From the NCBI GenBank assembly GCA_947178085.1, contig CAMWWS010000009.1, positions 1 to 19,529 on the forward strand: 19,529 nucleotides of DNA, written 5' to 3'. The position numbers and the translations under genes are program-made. The stretch's first letter is position 1, and every line of letters starts with the position of its first letter. Of this stretch, positions 2,541 to 19,280 are shown piece after piece. Below the pieces are notes generated by a model. The model ran no database searches. It saw nothing but the letters and a program-made list of their open reading frames with translations, and was not told the DNA's origin. This DNA comes from an uncultured Lachnospiraceae bacterium (GTDB lineage: Bacteria > Bacillota_A > Clostridia > Lachnospirales > Lachnospiraceae).

Positions 2541-4217
2541 TTAATTTTTGGATTCGCTTCCTATAACATATATCATATCCGCCTTTTCAATAGTCGATGG
2601 TCTATGTGCCACTACAAGAGTCGTACGTTCCCCCATGGGCGTTTCAATTCCTTTTTGAACAAGCTGCTCGCTCTCCGAATCCAAAGCAGAAGTCGCTTCA
2701 TCCAGAAGAAGTATCGGCGCATTCCTGATAAATGCACGGGCTATCGCAATTCGCTGACGCTGACCGCCTGACAGGCTTTCGCCGCGCTCCCCAACCATTG
2801 TCTCATATCCATTGGGAAAAGCCATAATAAATTCGTGGGCATAAGCACTCTTTGCAGCCTCAATAATTTCTTCATCACTCGCATCCAGTCTGCCATATCG
2901 TATATTTTCTTTTATGCTTGTTGTAAAGAGATAAGCATCCTGCGGAACATAAGCAATATTTTTTCGCAGTTCATCCAACGTATAATCAGGCAGCTGTTTA
3001 CCGAGTATACTGATAGTGCCACAGTCCGCCGGATAAAACCCTAACAGAAGTTTAACAATCGTACTCTTACCGGCGCCGCTTTCTCCTACAAGCGCAGCAG
3101 TTTTTCCTCTATCCACTGTAATATCAACGCCGTTTAGCACTTTTTCTGATTCATTATAGGAAAATACAACATTATTCATTACGATACCGTAATCTTCCTT
3201 GAAAGAAGAGATATCCATATCTATACTGTCCTTACTATAGCGTTCGGGCGCAATAGGCTGGTCCAAAATCTCAAACACCCTGTCCGCAAGAACAAAGGAA
3301 TCTATCAGGCTTCCCCATGCGCTGCCGATGTTTCTAAGGAAATACGATACCATATCCTGCAAACTGAGAATTGCTACCACCGTACCGAACTCCACCAAAC
3401 CGGCAAAGGACATAAATACGCCGATAAGCAAAATAACAATATTGCTCAAGAATCCAAACACCCATTCTACCGCCTGTACATCAGACATCCTGCGAAACCG
3501 CTTCATTGTCTGAACTTCCACATCTGCATTGGTATCAGAATACCTTGTTACCATAATCCGCGCTCCCGGAAACATCTTAATGATGTCAATCCCAGCCAAT
3601 ATATCCGTCAGGCTTTCCGTACATGCAGCAAGAAATTTCTGTATCCTGACCGCCATGCTGCGAAGCGGTTTGGACAGAATCATATTGATTCTCACCGATA
3701 TTATGCTTAATGCAAGTACCATAAGCCCTATCACCGGGTCCAGCAGCAATATAATTACGATTGCCGATACACCCACTATTATAGGGCTTATAAATCGCGA
3801 ATGCCTGTTCGCAAGGGAAGTTTTTATATCCTCTACGTTGAAACAGAGTTTTTGTATGGAATCCGCCGTATGATGCCCCTCAAAATATGACATCGGAAGA
3901 TGGAAAAGATGTGTCATGACCCGCATACGAAGCCTCGCCATAATCCGGCGGATATGATACATATATGTATAAGTAATGAAACATTTTGCCATACCTGCTG
4001 CCAGCACAACTACCGACAGCCATAGAGCCGCTTTAAATAAAGCCATATCGGAAGCCATTACCGCATTAATAATCTTTTGATAAAACAATGCGTTCGTTGA
4101 GCTTACAAATACTTCCGTAATTGGAATCAGTAACGTGCAAAACCAGTATACACCCGATTTTTCAAATAACGACAGATATTTTTTCAGTCCTGCAACTGTT
4201 ATTTTACCTTGATTCAT
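2541..4217 (-). CDS. ABC exporter half-transporter (membrane domain plus ATPase), short C terminus
   Basis: A 558-residue fused membrane/ATPase protein of the type I ABC exporter (MsbA/LmrA-like) class. The membrane domain covers about residues 20-310. The ATPase has an A-loop Tyr354, Walker A 378-385 (GESGAGKS), Q-loop Gln426, signature LSGGQ 482-486, Walker B ending in Glu507, and H-loop His538. All catalytic residues are present. The protein stops at ...YVIGSESKN, about 35-40 residues earlier than its neighbour, so the usual C-terminal helix is missing; the DNA after the stop shows no remnant of it in the other frames. The ATG has AAGGAG upstream. It starts two bases after the previous gene's stop, so the two halves probably form a heterodimer. 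Confidence 0.93.
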   Translation of the reverse strand: MNQGKITVAGLKKYLSLFEKSGVYWFCTLLIPITEVFVSSTNALFYQKIINAVMASDMALFKAALWLSVVVLAAGMAKCFITYTYMYHIRRIMARLRMRVMTHLFHLPMSYFEGHHTADSIQKLCFNVEDIKTSLANRHSRFISPIIVGVSAIVIILLLDPVIGLMVLALSIISVRINMILSKPLRSMAVRIQKFLAACTESLTDILAGIDIIKMFPGARIMVTRYSDTNADVEVQTMKRFRRMSDVQAVEWVFGFLSNIVILLIGVFMSFAGLVEFGTVVAILSLQDMVSYFLRNIGSAWGSLIDSFVLADRVFEILDQPIAPERYSKDSIDMDISSFKEDYGIVMNNVVFSYNESEKVLNGVDITVDRGKTAALVGESGAGKSTIVKLLLGFYPADCGTISILGKQLPDYTLDELRKNIAYVPQDAYLFTTSIKENIRYGRLDASDEEIIEAAKSAYAHEFIMAFPNGYETMVGERGESLSGGQRQRIAIARAFIRNAPILLLDEATSALDSESEQLVQKGIETPMGERTTLVVAHRPSTIEKADMIYVIGSESKN

Positions 4218-4219
4218 AA

Positions 4220-5932
4220 TTATATCTCTCCTTCAGAAGCATACATGGAATAAAGCTTTGGATAAACCCTGCCTCGTTCCATCAATTCTTCATGTGTCCC
4301 ACTCTCAGCTACTCTCCCATGCTCTATAACCACGATATGGTCTGCGTTCTTTATGGTAGACAACCGGTGTGCAACCACAAGCGTTGTACGTCCTTCTGCC
4401 AACCTGTCGAGTGCTTTTTGCACAGCCGCCTCCGACTGTACGTCAAGCGCCGATGTTGCTTCGTCTAAAAGCAGCATAGGAGCATCTTTTAAAATTGCCC
4501 GCGCTATGGAAATACGCTGTACCTGCCCTCCTGAGAGACGCGAGCCCCGTTCGCCTGCCAAAGTATCGTACTTTTCCGGAAGTTCGCTTATAAAACCGGA
4601 GGCATACGCTGCCTCGGCAGCCATACGAATTTCATCTTCACACGCCTCCGGCTTACCCATGGCAATATTTTCTCCCACAGACACCGGAAACAAATAGCTA
4701 TGCTGCGATACATAGGAAAGGCGTGAGCGCAGCGCTTCCAGATTCCAATCCTCAAGTTTGACCCCTTCAATTAGAATACTCCCTTGCTGCTGCCTGTAAA
4801 ATCCGCATAAAAGACGAAGCAATGTGCTTTTTCCGCCACCGCTTGCCCCCACCACTGCTACAGTCTTACCTCTGGGAACTTTAAAGCTGATACCATTCAG
4901 CACCGGAACCCCTTCCTCATAAGAAAACGACACATCTTTAAATTCTATTGCAGGAGCATCCTCTGTTCCGGATATTGTGCTCCCCGTCGGTTCAACTGGT
5001 GTATTCAATATTTCAAACACCCTTTCTATCGCCGCCAATGCAACCTTGCTGTTAAAAGTCCTATATGCCATGTCATTAATGACTTCCACCATCTTTGGCA
5101 AAAGAGCAAAAAATGCCACCAGACCTCCTATTGTCAATCTTCCCTGTATACAAAACCATCCTCCCGCTACAAGGCAGAGTATGGAAGAAAATGTTCCCGA
5201 CAGAATCCAAAACGCACGTCCCTTATACTGGTTCTTATCATTACAGATTGCCATATCCGTCATTTTCTGTACATTTTTACGATAATCTTCTAAAAGAGTA
5301 TCCTGAAGAGAATAGCTTTTAACTACTTCCATACCTCCTATTATGTCTGCTGACGTACTGATAACATCAGCTGAATACTGCATATATGCCTTTGAGCCGG
5401 CCTTGAACTTCGTAGTCAGCGATGCGCCAAATGGCAGACATATTATTGCAGGCACTATTGAAAGCAGAAATAGCGGCAAATTGAGATGCAGCAGATATAT
5501 AAAATAGAAAATAATTAAAAAAGGATTCATAATAACAAGAATTAAATCATCTTGTACAAAACCACTTATCCGGTTCACATCATCTGTCAATCTGGACAGA
5601 ATATCACCTGAGCGGTTTTTCGCCATAAATTCTGCTGTCACTCCGGTAATATGAGTTACCGCATCATCTTTGATCTGCCTAAGTATCTTAGTTGCCATAC
5701 CTCCGGATGCATACCTTGTAATCCATGCCGAACCTGCTCCGGCTATCAGTATGCAGATACACATAAAAGTAATATGACCTATGTTTGTTAATGTTCCTGC
5801 CTCCAATCCATCAATCACATACTTTAAAAGCTCGGAACCGGCAACACCGCAGCCGGCGCATAAAGCTGCGGCTAACAGGGCAAGAAGTATTAATTTTATG
5901 TGTTTACCGACATATTTTAAGATTACTGCCAT
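4220..5932 (-). CDS. ABC exporter half-transporter (membrane domain plus ATPase)
   Basis: A 570-residue type I ABC exporter half with an N-terminal six-helix membrane domain and a C-terminal ATPase. Seen are Walker A (GASGGGKS, about residues 362-369), Q-loop (SYVSQHSYLF), signature LSGGQVQR, Walker B with D-loop (LLLDEATSALD), H-loop (VAHRLST) and a normal C-terminal end (EHGRVAESGTHEELM). Both this protein and its partner keep the catalytic Glu, so neither ATP site looks degenerate. I chose the ATG at 5932 because GGGAGG lies five bases upstream; the in-frame ATG at 5953 has only a poor site one base away. The start overlaps the stop of the XRE-PurM regulator gene by ten bases. The substrate (drug, peptide or lipid) cannot be told. 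Confidence 0.93.
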   Translation of the reverse strand: MAVILKYVGKHIKLILLALLAAALCAGCGVAGSELLKYVIDGLEAGTLTNIGHITFMCICILIAGAGSAWITRYASGGMATKILRQIKDDAVTHITGVTAEFMAKNRSGDILSRLTDDVNRISGFVQDDLILVIMNPFLIIFYFIYLLHLNLPLFLLSIVPAIICLPFGASLTTKFKAGSKAYMQYSADVISTSADIIGGMEVVKSYSLQDTLLEDYRKNVQKMTDMAICNDKNQYKGRAFWILSGTFSSILCLVAGGWFCIQGRLTIGGLVAFFALLPKMVEVINDMAYRTFNSKVALAAIERVFEILNTPVEPTGSTISGTEDAPAIEFKDVSFSYEEGVPVLNGISFKVPRGKTVAVVGASGGGKSTLLRLLCGFYRQQQGSILIEGVKLEDWNLEALRSRLSYVSQHSYLFPVSVGENIAMGKPEACEDEIRMAAEAAYASGFISELPEKYDTLAGERGSRLSGGQVQRISIARAILKDAPMLLLDEATSALDVQSEAAVQKALDRLAEGRTTLVVAHRLSTIKNADHIVVIEHGRVAESGTHEELMERGRVYPKLYSMYASEGEI

Positions 5933-7185
5933 GATATCCTCCCTTTGCTCCATACCTTTTCGCCTTTGTGTCCATTATCGGTTTCCACCTGTCCGATACG
6001 CCAGCACTCCGAAAACTGCCCAATAACTTCCATTGCTTCTTTACAGTCTTTTTCCGGCACAGCCACTACCATACCTATTCCCATATTAAAATGATATGAA
6101 AACACATTTTCCCCAATCATTCCCTGTTCAAAGAGGAATTGATGCAGGGGCATGACAGGAAGCTCAGACAAATCAATGCACACACCTAATCCCTCCGGTA
6201 TGCCACGCCATATTCCCTCATTCATCAGGCTATTACTAATACGAAAAGCGTCCCGTAAATATCCTTTTTCCTGTAACGCTGTTATTTCTCTCGCGAATGC
6301 TGAGTTTGCTTTCATAAGCTCATCAAGAAAAAATCTTTTTTCGTCAATTTTGGCATGATAGAGTCCGGGGTTTTTATCCAGCATTATCTTAACAAAAGGA
6401 TAGCTAGTTCCATCTATGCCCTCTGTCTTAATGCCAATCAATACATCCCCTTTTTCCAAACAGCTTCCTGTCAGCAATTTATCTTTGTCCTGTACTCCTA
6501 CCACCGTAGCGCTTACCTCATACTCCTCTGAGGTAAAATTGACCGGCTGGGCAGAAATCTCCATTCCGGTAAATAATATATTATTTTTATCACAGATTTT
6601 CCTAAAGGACTGAGCCATAAGATAAAGCTGTTCCTGATTATAATTTCCACAAATAATCATTGATTTTAAGATGACCGGCTTCATGCCATGCTGCAGCGTG
6701 TGATTTATTGCACTTGCCGCTGCATCCGCACAAATTTCCTGATTATATCTATACTCTTTTGCTAATTTTTCCTTCGAACCCGGCACACAGGTAACACATG
6801 AATATACCGGTTCTTTCATTTGCGAGGTATCTATTTGAAACATACAGATATCCGCATAATCTGCAGACAATATACTCTTGTCCTTTGAGTTAAGTTTCAT
6901 TATTTCATGCTTTAAGGCATGTAACCTTTTGGTATCCAATCCCGAAGCCCGATATGAAATACTCCTGTTTTTCCATTCATCTTCATTTAGCAGCATATCA
7001 ACCGTCACATTCAGCAGACTGGAAATCTCATACAGTATATCAACCGCAGGTAGACTTTTTCCTAACTCCCATTTTGATACAGCCTGATATGAAATATGCA
7101 AAAAATCAGCAAGTTCCTTTTGGGTAATACCTTTTCCTTTTCTAAAAAAAGCAATTCTTTTACCGACTTCTTCTTTGTTCAGCAT
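5923..7185 (-). CDS. XRE-type HTH regulator fused to a degenerate PurM (AIR synthase)-like domain
   Basis: A 420-residue two-domain protein. Residues 7-68 form a Cro/C1-type helix-turn-helix (TQKELADFLHISYQAVSKWE as core). Residues about 105-408 align by eye with PurM, the AIR synthase of purine synthesis: LFTGMEISAQPV matches the GGETAEMPG region, KGDVLIGIKTEGI matches PGDVLIGLPSSGL, IPEGLGVCIDLSELP matches LPEGLAAVIDL, and FNMGIGMVVAVPEKD matches FNCGVGMVIAVPAED. The enzyme signature DGVGTK has become CVPGSK (133-138) and the GGG loop of the C domain is lost, so catalysis is unlikely and ligand sensing is likely (inference). It leads an operon with two ABC exporter halves. The ligand may be a purine intermediate or nucleotide, but this is not shown. 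Confidence 0.85.
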   Translation of the reverse strand: MLNKEEVGKRIAFFRKGKGITQKELADFLHISYQAVSKWELGKSLPAVDILYEISSLLNVTVDMLLNEDEWKNRSISYRASGLDTKRLHALKHEIMKLNSKDKSILSADYADICMFQIDTSQMKEPVYSCVTCVPGSKEKLAKEYRYNQEICADAAASAINHTLQHGMKPVILKSMIICGNYNQEQLYLMAQSFRKICDKNNILFTGMEISAQPVNFTSEEYEVSATVVGVQDKDKLLTGSCLEKGDVLIGIKTEGIDGTSYPFVKIMLDKNPGLYHAKIDEKRFFLDELMKANSAFAREITALQEKGYLRDAFRISNSLMNEGIWRGIPEGLGVCIDLSELPVMPLHQFLFEQGMIGENVFSYHFNMGIGMVVAVPEKDCKEAMEVIGQFSECWRIGQVETDNGHKGEKVWSKGRISWQ

Positions 7186-7217: not shown

Positions 7218-7245
7218 ATATTTCAAATATATCATGCCGATTATA
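7218..7245 (-). promoter_or_regulatory. Candidate promoter -10 and palindromic operator of the XRE-PurM operon
   Basis: On the minus strand a perfect TATAAT lies at 7245-7240, but no good -35 sits 17 bases upstream (CTATAA), so it may need an activator. Just downstream is an exact 13-base palindrome with an odd centre, ATATTTCAAATAT (7218-7230), placed over or just after the expected start of transcription. This is a typical site for an XRE regulator to repress its own operon. The local DNA is AT-rich, so chance palindromes are possible. Confidence 0.4.
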
Positions 7246-7310
7246 CTGCTGCAATAATCGCTTTATAGAGTCATTTTTGAAAAAATCAACCAATAGTTGA
7301 GCGGAGTAAT

Positions 7311-12707: not shown

Positions 12708-13715
12708 CTATTGCTCCAGCACCACCCCATGCGCTATACCCGGAATGGTCTGGCCTTCATTGAAGCTCGTCTTACTAAGAAGCGCACCTGTAGGCAAAAA
12801 GAGCACTCTTTTCCAAACGCCTTCCTCTATTTTTTTCAGAATATAGGCTGATAAGGTGACAGCAGCGCAGCCGCAGCCTGAGCCTCCGGCATTGGTATTC
12901 TGTTTCTCGCTGTCAAATATTTCAATACCACAGTCCATATGCTGTTTACGGATATCTATCCCATTCTCATCAAGCAGCTCAAACAGAAGCTTCTGTCCTA
13001 CCGAGCCCAAATCGCCTGTGATAATCTTGTCATAGTCATCAGGCTTTCTTCCGAAGTCCTCTAGATTCCGTTTGACTGTATCGGCGGCTGCAGGAGCCAT
13101 GCACGCTCCCATATTCATTGAATCCTTGATGCCGTAATCCATTATTCTGCCGAATGTCACCCCGGCTACCTTCGCACGCACCTTTCCCTCATTCTTGGAA
13201 GAAAGAAGGAAAGCCGCGCTGCCTGTTACGGTCCAGCTTGAGGAAAGCGGTCTCTGATTCCCGTAACCGAGCGGGTAACGGAACTCCTTCTCCGCGCTGG
13301 CAAAATGACTTGAAGTAACACATGCCGCCCTGTCCACGAAACCTCCTGACACGGCAAGGCTTCCGACTGCAATCGAAAGACCGCTGGTAGAGCACGCGCC
13401 ATACAGACCGACATGCGGCGTATTAAAAGACGCCAGACCAAAACTGCTGGCGATTGACTGTCCAAGTAAATCGCCAGCAAAAATAAGCTGTACATCTTCT
13501 TTTTTTAGGTTTGCTTTATCCAGCATAATCTGCAATGCTTCTTTTTGCAGGCTGCTCTCTGCTTCTTCCCATGTATTGGCGCCGAACATATCGTCCTGCC
13601 CCACCTTATCGAACAGTTTCCCCATAGGTCCCTGTCCTTCTTTGCTTCCTACAATTGAACCGCTGCTGATTATATAAACCGGATTATCAAACTGAACGCT
13701 TTGTTTCCCTACCAT
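12708..13715 (-). CDS. spoVAD: Stage V sporulation protein AD
   Basis: A 335-residue thiolase-fold protein. SpoVAD is known to bind dipicolinic acid and help load it into the spore through the SpoVA channel. Family features seen: N-terminal IISSGSIVGSKEGQGPMGK, LIFAGDLLGQ, YGACSTSGLS at the position of the thiolase nucleophile region, PLGYGNQRPLSSSWTVTG, and C-terminal AHGVVLE. The length matches the family. AAGGAG lies nine bases before the ATG, and a near-perfect sigma-G-type promoter lies about 80 bases upstream. Unlike in most spore formers, neither spoVAC nor spoVAE lies beside it: the upstream genes are an NTF2-fold protein and a dehydrogenase. Confidence 0.96.
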   Translation of the reverse strand: MVGKQSVQFDNPVYIISSGSIVGSKEGQGPMGKLFDKVGQDDMFGANTWEEAESSLQKEALQIMLDKANLKKEDVQLIFAGDLLGQSIASSFGLASFNTPHVGLYGACSTSGLSIAVGSLAVSGGFVDRAACVTSSHFASAEKEFRYPLGYGNQRPLSSSWTVTGSAAFLLSSKNEGKVRAKVAGVTFGRIMDYGIKDSMNMGACMAPAAADTVKRNLEDFGRKPDDYDKIITGDLGSVGQKLLFELLDENGIDIRKQHMDCGIEIFDSEKQNTNAGGSGCGCAAVTLSAYILKKIEEGVWKRVLFLPTGALLSKTSFNEGQTIPGIAHGVVLEQ

Positions 13716-17723: not shown

Positions 17724-19280
17724 ATGAATGTCACGGTAATCGAGAGCTATATAGACAAAGTGTACGCCTACGCCGTGAAGAGGACATTTACAGAGGAGGA
17801 GGCGGCCGATCTTTCTCAGGAAATTCTGTTCACTGCGGTAAAAGGGCTTCCCAGTCTACGTGAAGAGAGCAGTTTTGAGCCCTGGCTCTGGGGCATTGCC
17901 GGCAATGTTACCAAATCTTTCCGGCGCAAACAGGGGAAACAACGCGCGATGTATTCCTATGATATGCCGGATGATATCAGCGACTCCGGCGGCTTGGAAC
18001 AGGAAAACGAAGAACTGGAGGAACTCTATGGACATCTTCGCAAAAGCATTTCCATGCTTTCCGCCATGTACCGCGACATCATCATACTATTCTACTACGA
18101 CAACCTTTCTACAAAAACAATTGCCGAGCGTCTGGGAATTCCCGAAGGCACCGTTACATGGCGGCTGTCCGAAGCCAGACGAAAACTGAAAAAGGAGTGT
18201 ATTAAAATGGAAGAAAGTGCATTGAGACCTGTAAAACTAAACCTTGACATTTACGGAAGCGGTAATTTTGACGGAGTCAGAATCCCATTCCCTACGGCAT
18301 TTATTGATGATGCCCTGTCCCAAAACATACTATACTATTGTTACGACGGAGCAAAATCCACGGAAGAGCTCGCAAAGCTCTGCGGCGTCCCCGCTTATTA
18401 TGTGGAGGAGCGTCTGGAGAATCTGGTTAAACGAGCGGCTGTCATAGAGACGGTAAAAGGAAAGTATCAGACTGATTTCATTATCTGGTCTGACAAATAT
18501 GGGATATACTGTGAAGAAAACACTGAAAATGCAATTATGCCTATTAAGGACAAAATGATTGCTGCCTTGAAATCCCTTGCGGCAGAAGCCGGAAAAATTG
18601 ATTTCTACAAAGCGGAGAAAAAAGAATCTGACTTGTTTTATCTCTACAGCAGTATGGCTTTTGAGTATATGCTGCATCATTACTGCGAACTGCCGCTTCC
18701 GGAAATCAGGGAAAACTACGACGGCATGCGCTGGCGTTATATTGGAAATATGGAAACCGGGACACATAAGAGAATCCGTTTTTCGATTAACCGCTGTGGA
18801 AACAACATGACCAAAGGACATTATACACACACTGTATACGTAGGAATTGATGGTATACCTTCGCGAGAAATCATGTATGACAACTATATCAACGCATGTG
18901 AAGACATTTTACTTACCGGTTCTTCAGATGATGTTGACGCGGCAGCCCTAACAATTCAATCCGAATATGTTATCCGCCGTGAGAATGGAGAACTCTTCGT
19001 TACTATTCCTGCATTTACTGCGGAGCAGAAAACTGCTTTTGATGCCTTAGTGGAAAAATATCTGTCCCCACTACGTGATGAATATAACGAACTTACCACT
19101 TCCTTTATTGCGGGTTATAAAAAGCTGTTTCCAAAGCACTTACAGGAAGACGCAGACCGACAGAGCAGAAATCTTTATTTTGGACTATGTTACGTTTTGC
19201 TCTCCTTTGCGCAGAAGACAGGGAGTATTGAACCGCCCACTCCCAGATGTTACTGTGATGTGATGCTGGAAAAGAGGTAA
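17724..19280 (+). CDS. ECF-like RNA polymerase sigma factor with long C-terminal extension
   Basis: A 518-residue protein. Residues about 5-70 look like sigma-70 region 2 (EEEAADLSQEILFTAVKGL, then SFEPWLWGIAGNVTKSFRRK) and 105-158 like region 4 (YRDIIILFYYDNLSTKTIAE, then LGIPEGTVTWRLSEARRKLK), so the first third is an ECF sigma factor. The remaining 350 or so residues are unusual. A winged-helix-like stretch (about 198-256, with STEELAKLCGVPAYYVEERL) is followed by a mixed domain I do not recognise, ending with a helical part and CYCDVMLEK. No anti-sigma gene lies beside it, so the extension may itself control activity. AAAGGAG is 11 bases before the ATG, a long spacing. An AAAAGCTTTT palindrome at 17686-17695 lies upstream. 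Confidence 0.88.
   Translation: MNVTVIESYIDKVYAYAVKRTFTEEEAADLSQEILFTAVKGLPSLREESSFEPWLWGIAGNVTKSFRRKQGKQRAMYSYDMPDDISDSGGLEQENEELEELYGHLRKSISMLSAMYRDIIILFYYDNLSTKTIAERLGIPEGTVTWRLSEARRKLKKECIKMEESALRPVKLNLDIYGSGNFDGVRIPFPTAFIDDALSQNILYYCYDGAKSTEELAKLCGVPAYYVEERLENLVKRAAVIETVKGKYQTDFIIWSDKYGIYCEENTENAIMPIKDKMIAALKSLAAEAGKIDFYKAEKKESDLFYLYSSMAFEYMLHHYCELPLPEIRENYDGMRWRYIGNMETGTHKRIRFSINRCGNNMTKGHYTHTVYVGIDGIPSREIMYDNYINACEDILLTGSSDDVDAAALTIQSEYVIRRENGELFVTIPAFTAEQKTAFDALVEKYLSPLRDEYNELTTSFIAGYKKLFPKHLQEDADRQSRNLYFGLCYVLLSFAQKTGSIEPPTPRCYCDVMLEKR

Follow-up and report, generated by a model that had tools for sequence, protein, structure and literature searches.

The minus-strand gene at 5923..7185 of a 19,529-nucleotide stretch of DNA from an uncultured Lachnospiraceae bacterium (contig CAMWWS010000009.1; the whole stretch is called the window here) encodes a protein in which an XRE (Cro/C1-type) helix-turn-helix (HTH) is joined to the predicted fold of PurM, the aminoimidazole ribonucleotide (AIR) synthase, an architecture that profile matches and a structure model confirm. 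We consider it likely that this protein is an autoregulated one-component regulator of the adjacent ATP-binding cassette (ABC) exporter, in which the PurM-derived domain serves as a putative sensor. An earlier note, made from the letters of the window alone, had placed an HTH joined to a degenerate PurM domain at these coordinates, which proved right, and had proposed an enzyme turned into a ligand sensor. Its reading is borne out as far as the architecture, the fold and the loss of residues in close relatives are concerned, while the ligand-sensing role is one that we infer; the role as a regulator is strengthened by the linkage to a pair of ABC exporter genes and by a palindrome upstream whose spacing from a promoter element is nearly constant. 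To the coordinates we add the strand, as the plus-strand frame over the same interval contains many stops.

Architecture and residue loss

The features of the protein are as follows.

5923..7185, minus strand: HTH-PurM class I regulator gene (420 amino acids; ATG start at 7185, end at 5923)
6982..7167, minus strand: XRE (Cro/C1-type) helix-turn-helix, residues 7-68 (Pfam HTH_3 at 14-63, HTH_19 at 8-67; helices in the model)
5983..6957, minus strand: PurM-like domain, residues 77-401, proposed sensor (TIGR00878 match below cut-off; Foldseek match to PurM)
6772..6789, minus strand: CVPGSK, residues 133-138, which replaces DGVGTK (residue comparison)
6676..6702, minus strand: HTLQHGMKP, residues 162-170, remnant of DX4GAXP (Asp gone in 114 of 114 class I proteins)
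6556..6567, minus strand: GMEI, residues 207-210, which replaces GGET (Glu kept)

The protein belongs to the XRE family by its HTH_3-type DNA-binding domain (residues 14-63, E 3.8e-13, 49.7 bits against a cut-off of 23). Its remainder is recognized by Pfam AIRS_C (residues 332-407, E 1.3e-8) and, over residues 77-401, by the NCBIfam purM model TIGR00878 (E 1e-38), with a score of 133.4 bits that stays under the curated cut-off of 236.35 for the enzyme; the Pfam AIRS N-domain reached only E 0.03, under its own cut-off. A sequence search of the PDB retrieved the PurM structure 2btu (E 2.1e-32). Consistent with these matches, the AlphaFold2 model (mean predicted local distance difference test 94.6, predicted template modelling score 0.88) adopts the fold of the PurM superfamily: PurM structures rank first in the Foldseek results (2btu, TMtarget 0.90, root-mean-square deviation 2.5; 1cli, 0.88 and 2.7), with ThiL and HypE as lower-ranked matches in the same list. 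The earlier note had allowed for the lack of a PurM match or for a different fold, and both profile and model point to PurM.

Searching with the regulator, we found 1534 proteins at E <= 1e-3. Among the best 120 of these, 116 carry an HTH domain and 106 combine it with AIRS_C (precomputed Pfam), so that uncharacterized relatives, which the note had thought possible, are indeed in the databases; where the source organism was given (six rows), it was a Lachnospiraceae bacterium, once Suilimivivens. Relatives of the window regulator that share its HTH-PurM layout and have lost the catalytic landmarks are referred to as class I. Class II proteins also have the HTH-PurM layout and are about 30% identical, read EEPGSK where PurM has DGVGTK, and keep GGET, HTNG, HITGGG and DX4GAXP; a search with class II gave at least 7999 candidates, and the 120 listed show HTH_3, AIRS and AIRS_C. 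Class III proteins (L122, L123, L250, L251) likewise contain EEPGSK and have no HTH.

We compared residues across 32 ordinary purM products, 4 class III, 120 class II and 114 class I proteins. The class I rows, derived from the best 120 of the 1534 matches, are 114 of 121, seven outside 400-500 amino acids being left out, and the class II rows are the 120 listed. The purM rows were selected by filters that required GxGTK, with ETAE as a further requirement in 15 rows; 17 of 18 and 15 of 20 loci were retained, and these two motif columns are not independent within the purM group.

DGVGTK, GGET, HSNG and HITGGG are catalytic or substrate motifs of PurM. All four are conserved in the 32 purM rows, and class I has lost them. 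At the position of the DGVGTK aspartate, purM has D (32/32) and classes III and II have E (4/4 and 120/120), while class I has C (112/114) or S (2/114). The HSNG histidine, present in all 156 proteins outside class I, is replaced in class I by D (68), E (31), N (9), A (5) or V (1); the GGG of HITGGG, absent from all 114 class I proteins, persists outside class I, apart from one class II protein with S for the second glycine, and only G207 and E209 are left of GGET. The same holds for DX4GAXP, which the consulted part of one source describes as an ATP-binding motif of the PurM superfamily (PMC4506123): its aspartate, at position 162, is D in all 156 proteins outside class I, and Y (41), F (41), H (30), Q (1) or L (1) within it. 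For the window protein itself, the note had correctly read CVPGSK at residues 133-138 in place of DGVGTK and a missing GGG loop in the C domain, where the sequence is RISNSL instead of HITGGG; the catalytic degeneration that it described extends across all 114 class I proteins, and the full retention of catalytic residues in close homologues, which it had allowed for, was not seen.

Degeneration at these positions is accompanied by strict conservation at others. PGSK, Cys152, Cys179, Cys394, N161, Glu209, Gln213, Asn216 and Pro263 are invariant in 114 of 114 class I proteins, and Cys198 and Asp154 are each found in 112. Since a 26-member alignment contains 71 invariant columns, and since the ratio of non-synonymous to synonymous substitution rates (dN/dS) in the PurM-like part was 0.12-0.21 in five of five pairs, indicating purifying selection, the HTH-PurM combination is a product of neither chance nor decay; for the HTH part, dN/dS was 0.08-0.14, the closest pair giving 0.44. 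Class I thus fixes a set of residues of its own, and, as far as can be judged from the sequences, its active-site cleft is rebuilt, beyond simple decay.

The cysteine at the catalytic aspartate position raises the alternative that the domain is a thiol or metal sensor, in which Cys133, together with Cys152, Cys179, Cys198 and Cys394, would react with an oxidant or electrophile or coordinate a metal, and the pump would export the agent or its adduct. In class I, these cysteines are nearly or fully invariant (Cys133 in 112 of 114, the others as given above). However, all but Cys133 are also found in 120 of 120 class II proteins, leaving Cys133 as the only one specific to class I, and ordinary purM products carry Cys179 in 24 of 32 and Cys198 in 32 of 32. 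We therefore regard this alternative as rather improbable.

Linkage to an exporter pair

Two genes on the same strand follow the regulator gene in the window.

4220..5953, minus strand: ABC exporter half 1 (membrane and ATPase domains; its start overlaps the regulator end by 31 bases)
2541..4217, minus strand: ABC exporter half 2 (separated from half 1 by 2 bases)

MsbA-type models recognize both halves with scores under their cut-offs, and in the PDB half 1 resembles chains of ABCB, Sav1866 and MsbA; these matches name no substrate. To these we can add 22 further class I loci, of which 18 are intact and have enough downstream DNA. The downstream scan covered the next four frames and required GSK in the regulator, so that the broken L201 was read separately. 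In all 18 loci, both exporter halves lie downstream on the same strand, mostly overlapping; in L196 the first half was hidden by the frame filter and was revealed by tblastn, and in L007 and L192 one gene stands between the regulator and the pair. The intervening gene in L007 (L007:11306-12163) encodes an AraC-type regulator (Pfam), and the intervening frame in L192 has 282 amino acids. The contigs of L150 and L190 end inside the first exporter half, and that of L202 ends inside the regulator, which is read there in two frames.

By identity to the pair of the window, the exporter pairs form two groups, one at 72-98% and the other at 32-39%. In L195, the regulator is 75% identical to that of the window and the exporter halves only 33% and 37%, which suggests that regulator and pump are exchangeable. 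Other neighbours vary across seven class I loci, although close relatives (L005, L189) share some of them, and the CPBP gene at 1847-2452 of the window is not a conserved part of the locus. None of 26 class II loci has the exporter pair (next four frames; some lie near a contig end); single weak ABC matches (28-31%) occur near two class II genes, L114 and L217.

In a separate observation, the PurM part of P0119, a database protein of 603 residues, continues without a change of frame into an ABC membrane domain, as either a natural regulator-exporter fusion or a frameshift of the overlapping genes. A role in anti-phage defence was considered and rejected: PADLOC models matched only the N-terminal part of the regulator (up to residue 131 at most), and those that matched the exporter halves were ATPase models.

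Upstream palindrome and proposed promoter

Upstream of the regulator gene, the following elements were identified.

7286..7300, no strand assigned: proposed operator, the palindrome TCAACN5GTTGA (comparison of upstream regions)
7252..7257, minus strand: conserved TTATTG, 28 nucleotides after the palindrome, overlapping the proposed -35
7249..7254, minus strand: proposed -35 TTGCAG (read from the sequence)
7226..7231, minus strand: proposed -10 TATATT, with TGA before it, 17 nucleotides after TTGCAG (read by eye)

All 23 class I upstream regions contain the palindrome with no more than one mismatch (17 exact copies and six with one mismatch, among them that of the broken L201); the one-mismatch copy of L198 lies far upstream, lacks TTATTG and may be due to chance. 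Exact palindromes occurred in only 4 of 11,000 mononucleotide-shuffled regions, and the class I loci contain 17 exact copies in 312,258 bases, 16 of which are the upstream sites. Allowing one mismatch, we found the palindrome in 19 of 26 class II upstream regions (eight exact) and in neither of two from class III.

We also searched 42 genomes, all chosen for their HTH-PurM genes, for the spaced pattern TCAACN5GTTGAN{18,34}TTATTG. This resulted in 25 sites in 21 genomes, and in none for the reversed control. Although gaps of 18-34 nucleotides were allowed, only 27 (13 sites), 28 (nine) and 29 (three) were found. Twenty of the 25 sites precede HTH-PurM genes (12 class I, eight class II), and the remaining five precede genes in which an HTH is joined to a methyltransferase (L226, L232, L242, L243) or to a GNAT acetyltransferase (L240). 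As 25 of 25 spaced sites thus stand before a gene that itself encodes such an HTH, the pattern is that of autoregulation.

The five sites outside the HTH-PurM genes also bear on another reading, in which some other XRE protein would recognize the palindrome, or the palindrome would be a promoter element common to this XRE subfamily, and HTH-PurM would control something else. Besides the methyltransferase and GNAT genes that carry the same site, a further XRE gene (L255) with a bare palindrome upstream speaks for this. The consistent position of the spaced sites before genes for their own HTH speaks against it, and we hold it to be unlikely. Among bare palindromes in six genomes, 22 sites were found versus six for the reversed control; nine of the 22 belong to genes for HTH-PurM, HTH-methyltransferase or HTH-GNAT proteins. 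Seven of the remaining 13 were read: one is upstream of the XRE gene of L255, five are inside long frames, and one is intergenic without an XRE gene.

As to the proteins at the five sites, those with an XRE HTH and a TehB-like methyltransferase are encoded at L226:1716-2573, L232:1613-2452, L242:592-1422 and L243:588-1436, each behind a promoter with the palindrome, 27 nucleotides and TTATTG; the methyltransferase was assigned by Pfam for L242, and for L226, L232 and L243 by similarity to L242. The protein with an XRE HTH and a GNAT acetyltransferase (Pfam), at L240:1608-2249, has a promoter site of the HTH-PurM type.

The position of the palindrome upstream of the promoter argues, on the sequence, against a simple blocking repressor, although it is no proof of an activator. 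Given a palindrome centre some 39 bp upstream of a weak -35, we lean slightly towards activation.

A number of observations weigh against an autoregulated exporter regulator. The 18 exporter-linked loci include close kin (e.g., L005 with L189, and L001 with L193) and therefore represent fewer than 18 independent events, and L201, a broken class I relic with stops, has no exporter pair. A consensus promoter scan with a stricter rule found none at the proposed -35 and -10, which would fit a weak -35. TTATTG follows the palindrome in all 19 class II rows shown but in no more than 16 of the 22 from class I, and 21 of the 42 HTH-PurM genomes lack the exact spaced pattern. Moreover, the pattern was designed after the class I and II regions had been seen, so that only five of the 25 sites are independent. 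L201 has a one-mismatch palindrome and TTATTG upstream, and may be a relic left after loss of the pump.

History, proposed mode of action and known systems

Within the family, HTH-PurM genes were found in 10 of 397 genomes (one class I, in the window's own genome, and nine class II, with class III in two more). Two genera gave 27 of 77 genomes (seven with class I) and 15 of 101 genomes (12 with class I, including broken and truncated genes). Beyond the family, a search of 390 other genomes of the class and 397 other genomes of the phylum found none (E <= 1e-42, best four candidates per genome); the eight matches in those genomes were six ordinary purM and two class III genes. Stand-alone class III paralogues of PurM lie at L250:1450-2496 and L251:1420-2460 in other genomes of the phylum. 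A plasmid cassette was rejected: tblastn against plasmids gave 171 records, all below 60% identity, and the best 10 of the 171 cover the PurM part and are purM where annotated.

In a tree of 79 PurM domains, built by a quick method and with long branches flagged, one branch sets purM apart (support 100) and another class I (100), and the same applies to class III (97) and, weakly, to class II (59). With purM as the outside group, class III separates first and then classes II and I, the branch that splits off the HTH-bearing classes having a support of 84. The class I branch exceeds three changes per site, and the placement of class I is unsure. As the junction between HTH and PurM is at the same place in classes I and II, a single fusion with subsequent loss of catalysis in class I would be the simplest history suggested by these alignments, though it is unproven.

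Some listed class II proteins (an example is encoded at L088:1465-2715, minus strand) are named phosphoribosylformylglycinamidine cyclo-ligase by their sources, a name that follows from the scores, since eight of nine HTH-bearing class II entries exceed the TIGR00878 cut-off, the exception being the incomplete G093 entry; two of two class III entries exceed it as well. The equivalog model therefore labels class II as PurM despite a separate purM over the cut-off in 11 of 11 class II or III genomes tested. A separate ordinary purM was also found elsewhere in seven of seven class I genomes checked.

These scores are pertinent to the possibility of an autoregulated enzyme, whose PurM domain would still carry out an ATP-dependent reaction, on another substrate, and whose HTH would set only its own level. 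Such a protein would suit the near-complete set of PurM motifs in classes II and III, and the class II genes that have the palindrome and no adjacent exporter; in class I, it could draw on the retention of E209, N161 and the loop G-S-K (114/114 each) and of D154 (112/114). Against it stands the loss, in 114 of 114 class I proteins, of the acidic residues of DGVGTK and DX4GAXP, the HSNG histidine and the GGG loop. The alternative is thus weak for class I and quite plausible for class II, and as an account of the window regulator we give it a small chance.

Under the exporter-regulator reading that we favour, the regulator gene and the two exporter halves behind it would form one operon controlled by the regulator itself. 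The XRE head would bind TCAACN5GTTGA upstream of the promoter. The C-terminal domain, having kept the PurM fold and lost its catalytic and substrate-loop residues, would now act as a sensor, most simply by way of an enzyme-like intermediate. PurM is a dimer, and the regulator may be one too. A small molecule, most likely the substrate of the pump or a metabolite that reports its presence, would bind the reworked active-site cleft, and the ensuing change of shape would alter the HTH on its operator and turn the exporter operon up or down.

Among characterized proteins, PurM itself (TIGR00878; AIRS and AIRS_C) shares with the regulator the fold (TMtarget about 0.9), the order of motifs, E209, N161, G369 and mostly D154. 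The regulator differs in its additional XRE HTH, in the loss of the catalytic landmarks described above, and in its position before an exporter pair, with the ordinary purM elsewhere. The class II HTH-PurM proteins that turned up in the family of genome G004 share the architecture, the junction and, in 19 of 26 cases, the palindrome; at about 30% identity, they differ from class I in keeping HTNG, HITGGG, GGET and DX4GAXP and in having no exporter pair within the next four frames (0 of 26).

A comparable use of an enzyme fold is seen in Bacillus subtilis PurR, which the consulted sections of one source describe as a winged HTH with a catalytically inactive phosphoribosyltransferase (PRT) domain that controls the purine regulon (PMC8789054). 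According to the same sections, the inactive pocket of a purine enzyme can hold effectors and control DNA binding. PurR and the regulator would thus share a purine-enzyme fold as the effector domain of a one-component regulator; they differ in the HTH and in the enzyme fold, and, where PurR controls the purine regulon, the regulator gene adjoins an ABC exporter. XRE-cupin regulators (PMC10965056, PMC7901475) likewise combine an XRE domain with a separate signal-sensing domain, a role that is putative for the PurM domain; their second domain is a cupin and not a PurM fold.

The precedent of a repurposed purine-enzyme pocket, together with the kinship to PurM in the tree, would favour a sensor of the purine state in the manner of Bacillus PurR with its PRT domain, responding to formylglycinamidine ribonucleotide, AIR, formylglycinamide ribonucleotide, ATP or alarmones, with a pump that exports a nucleotide-like product. 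However, class I is without the substrate-loop and nucleotide-motif residues, and none of the 25 spaced sites in the 42 genomes is at a purine gene. We consider such a sensor quite unlikely, and, as no purine gene is among these sites, control of a purine regulon was rejected. The purine intermediates that the earlier note named first as ligands are, accordingly, favoured by nothing in class I, given the loss of the substrate loop and of two acidic residues of the nucleotide motifs.

No HTH-PurM regulator was described in the titles and abstract openings found by searches of open-licence literature aimed at HTH-PurM or XRE-enzyme regulators, which is weak evidence of absence, and the main text of a survey of XRE palindromes (PMC12565409) contains neither TCAAC nor GTTGA. 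Enzyme folds that became sensors on an HTH are a known kind of regulator. What looks new here is the use of PurM, along with the intermediates, the linkage to an exporter and a promoter site held in common.

More tentatively, and with some doubt, these genes may represent a modular, self-regulating set, in which one XRE head with a standard promoter (palindrome, 27-29 nucleotides, TTATTG) would have been placed on PurM, a TehB-like methyltransferase and GNAT. The PurM series would then lead from a free paralogue with EEPGSK, through an HTH with an enzyme-like PurM that controls its own dose, to a dead sensor with an exporter, perhaps with Cys133 as a thiol switch. If this is true, a series with living intermediates would allow the order of events to be tested: HTH fusion first, loss of catalysis later and capture of the exporter last. 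The palindrome makes the regulator directly assayable, and the substrate of the exporter would indicate a compound encountered by these bacteria.

Two other genes of the window may be mentioned. The 518-residue protein encoded at 17724-19280 has N-terminal sigma-70 regions 2 and 4, followed by a long C-terminal part without explanation, and that encoded at 12708-13715 is SpoVAD-like, scoring above the cut-off of NF006160 and just below that of TIGR02845.

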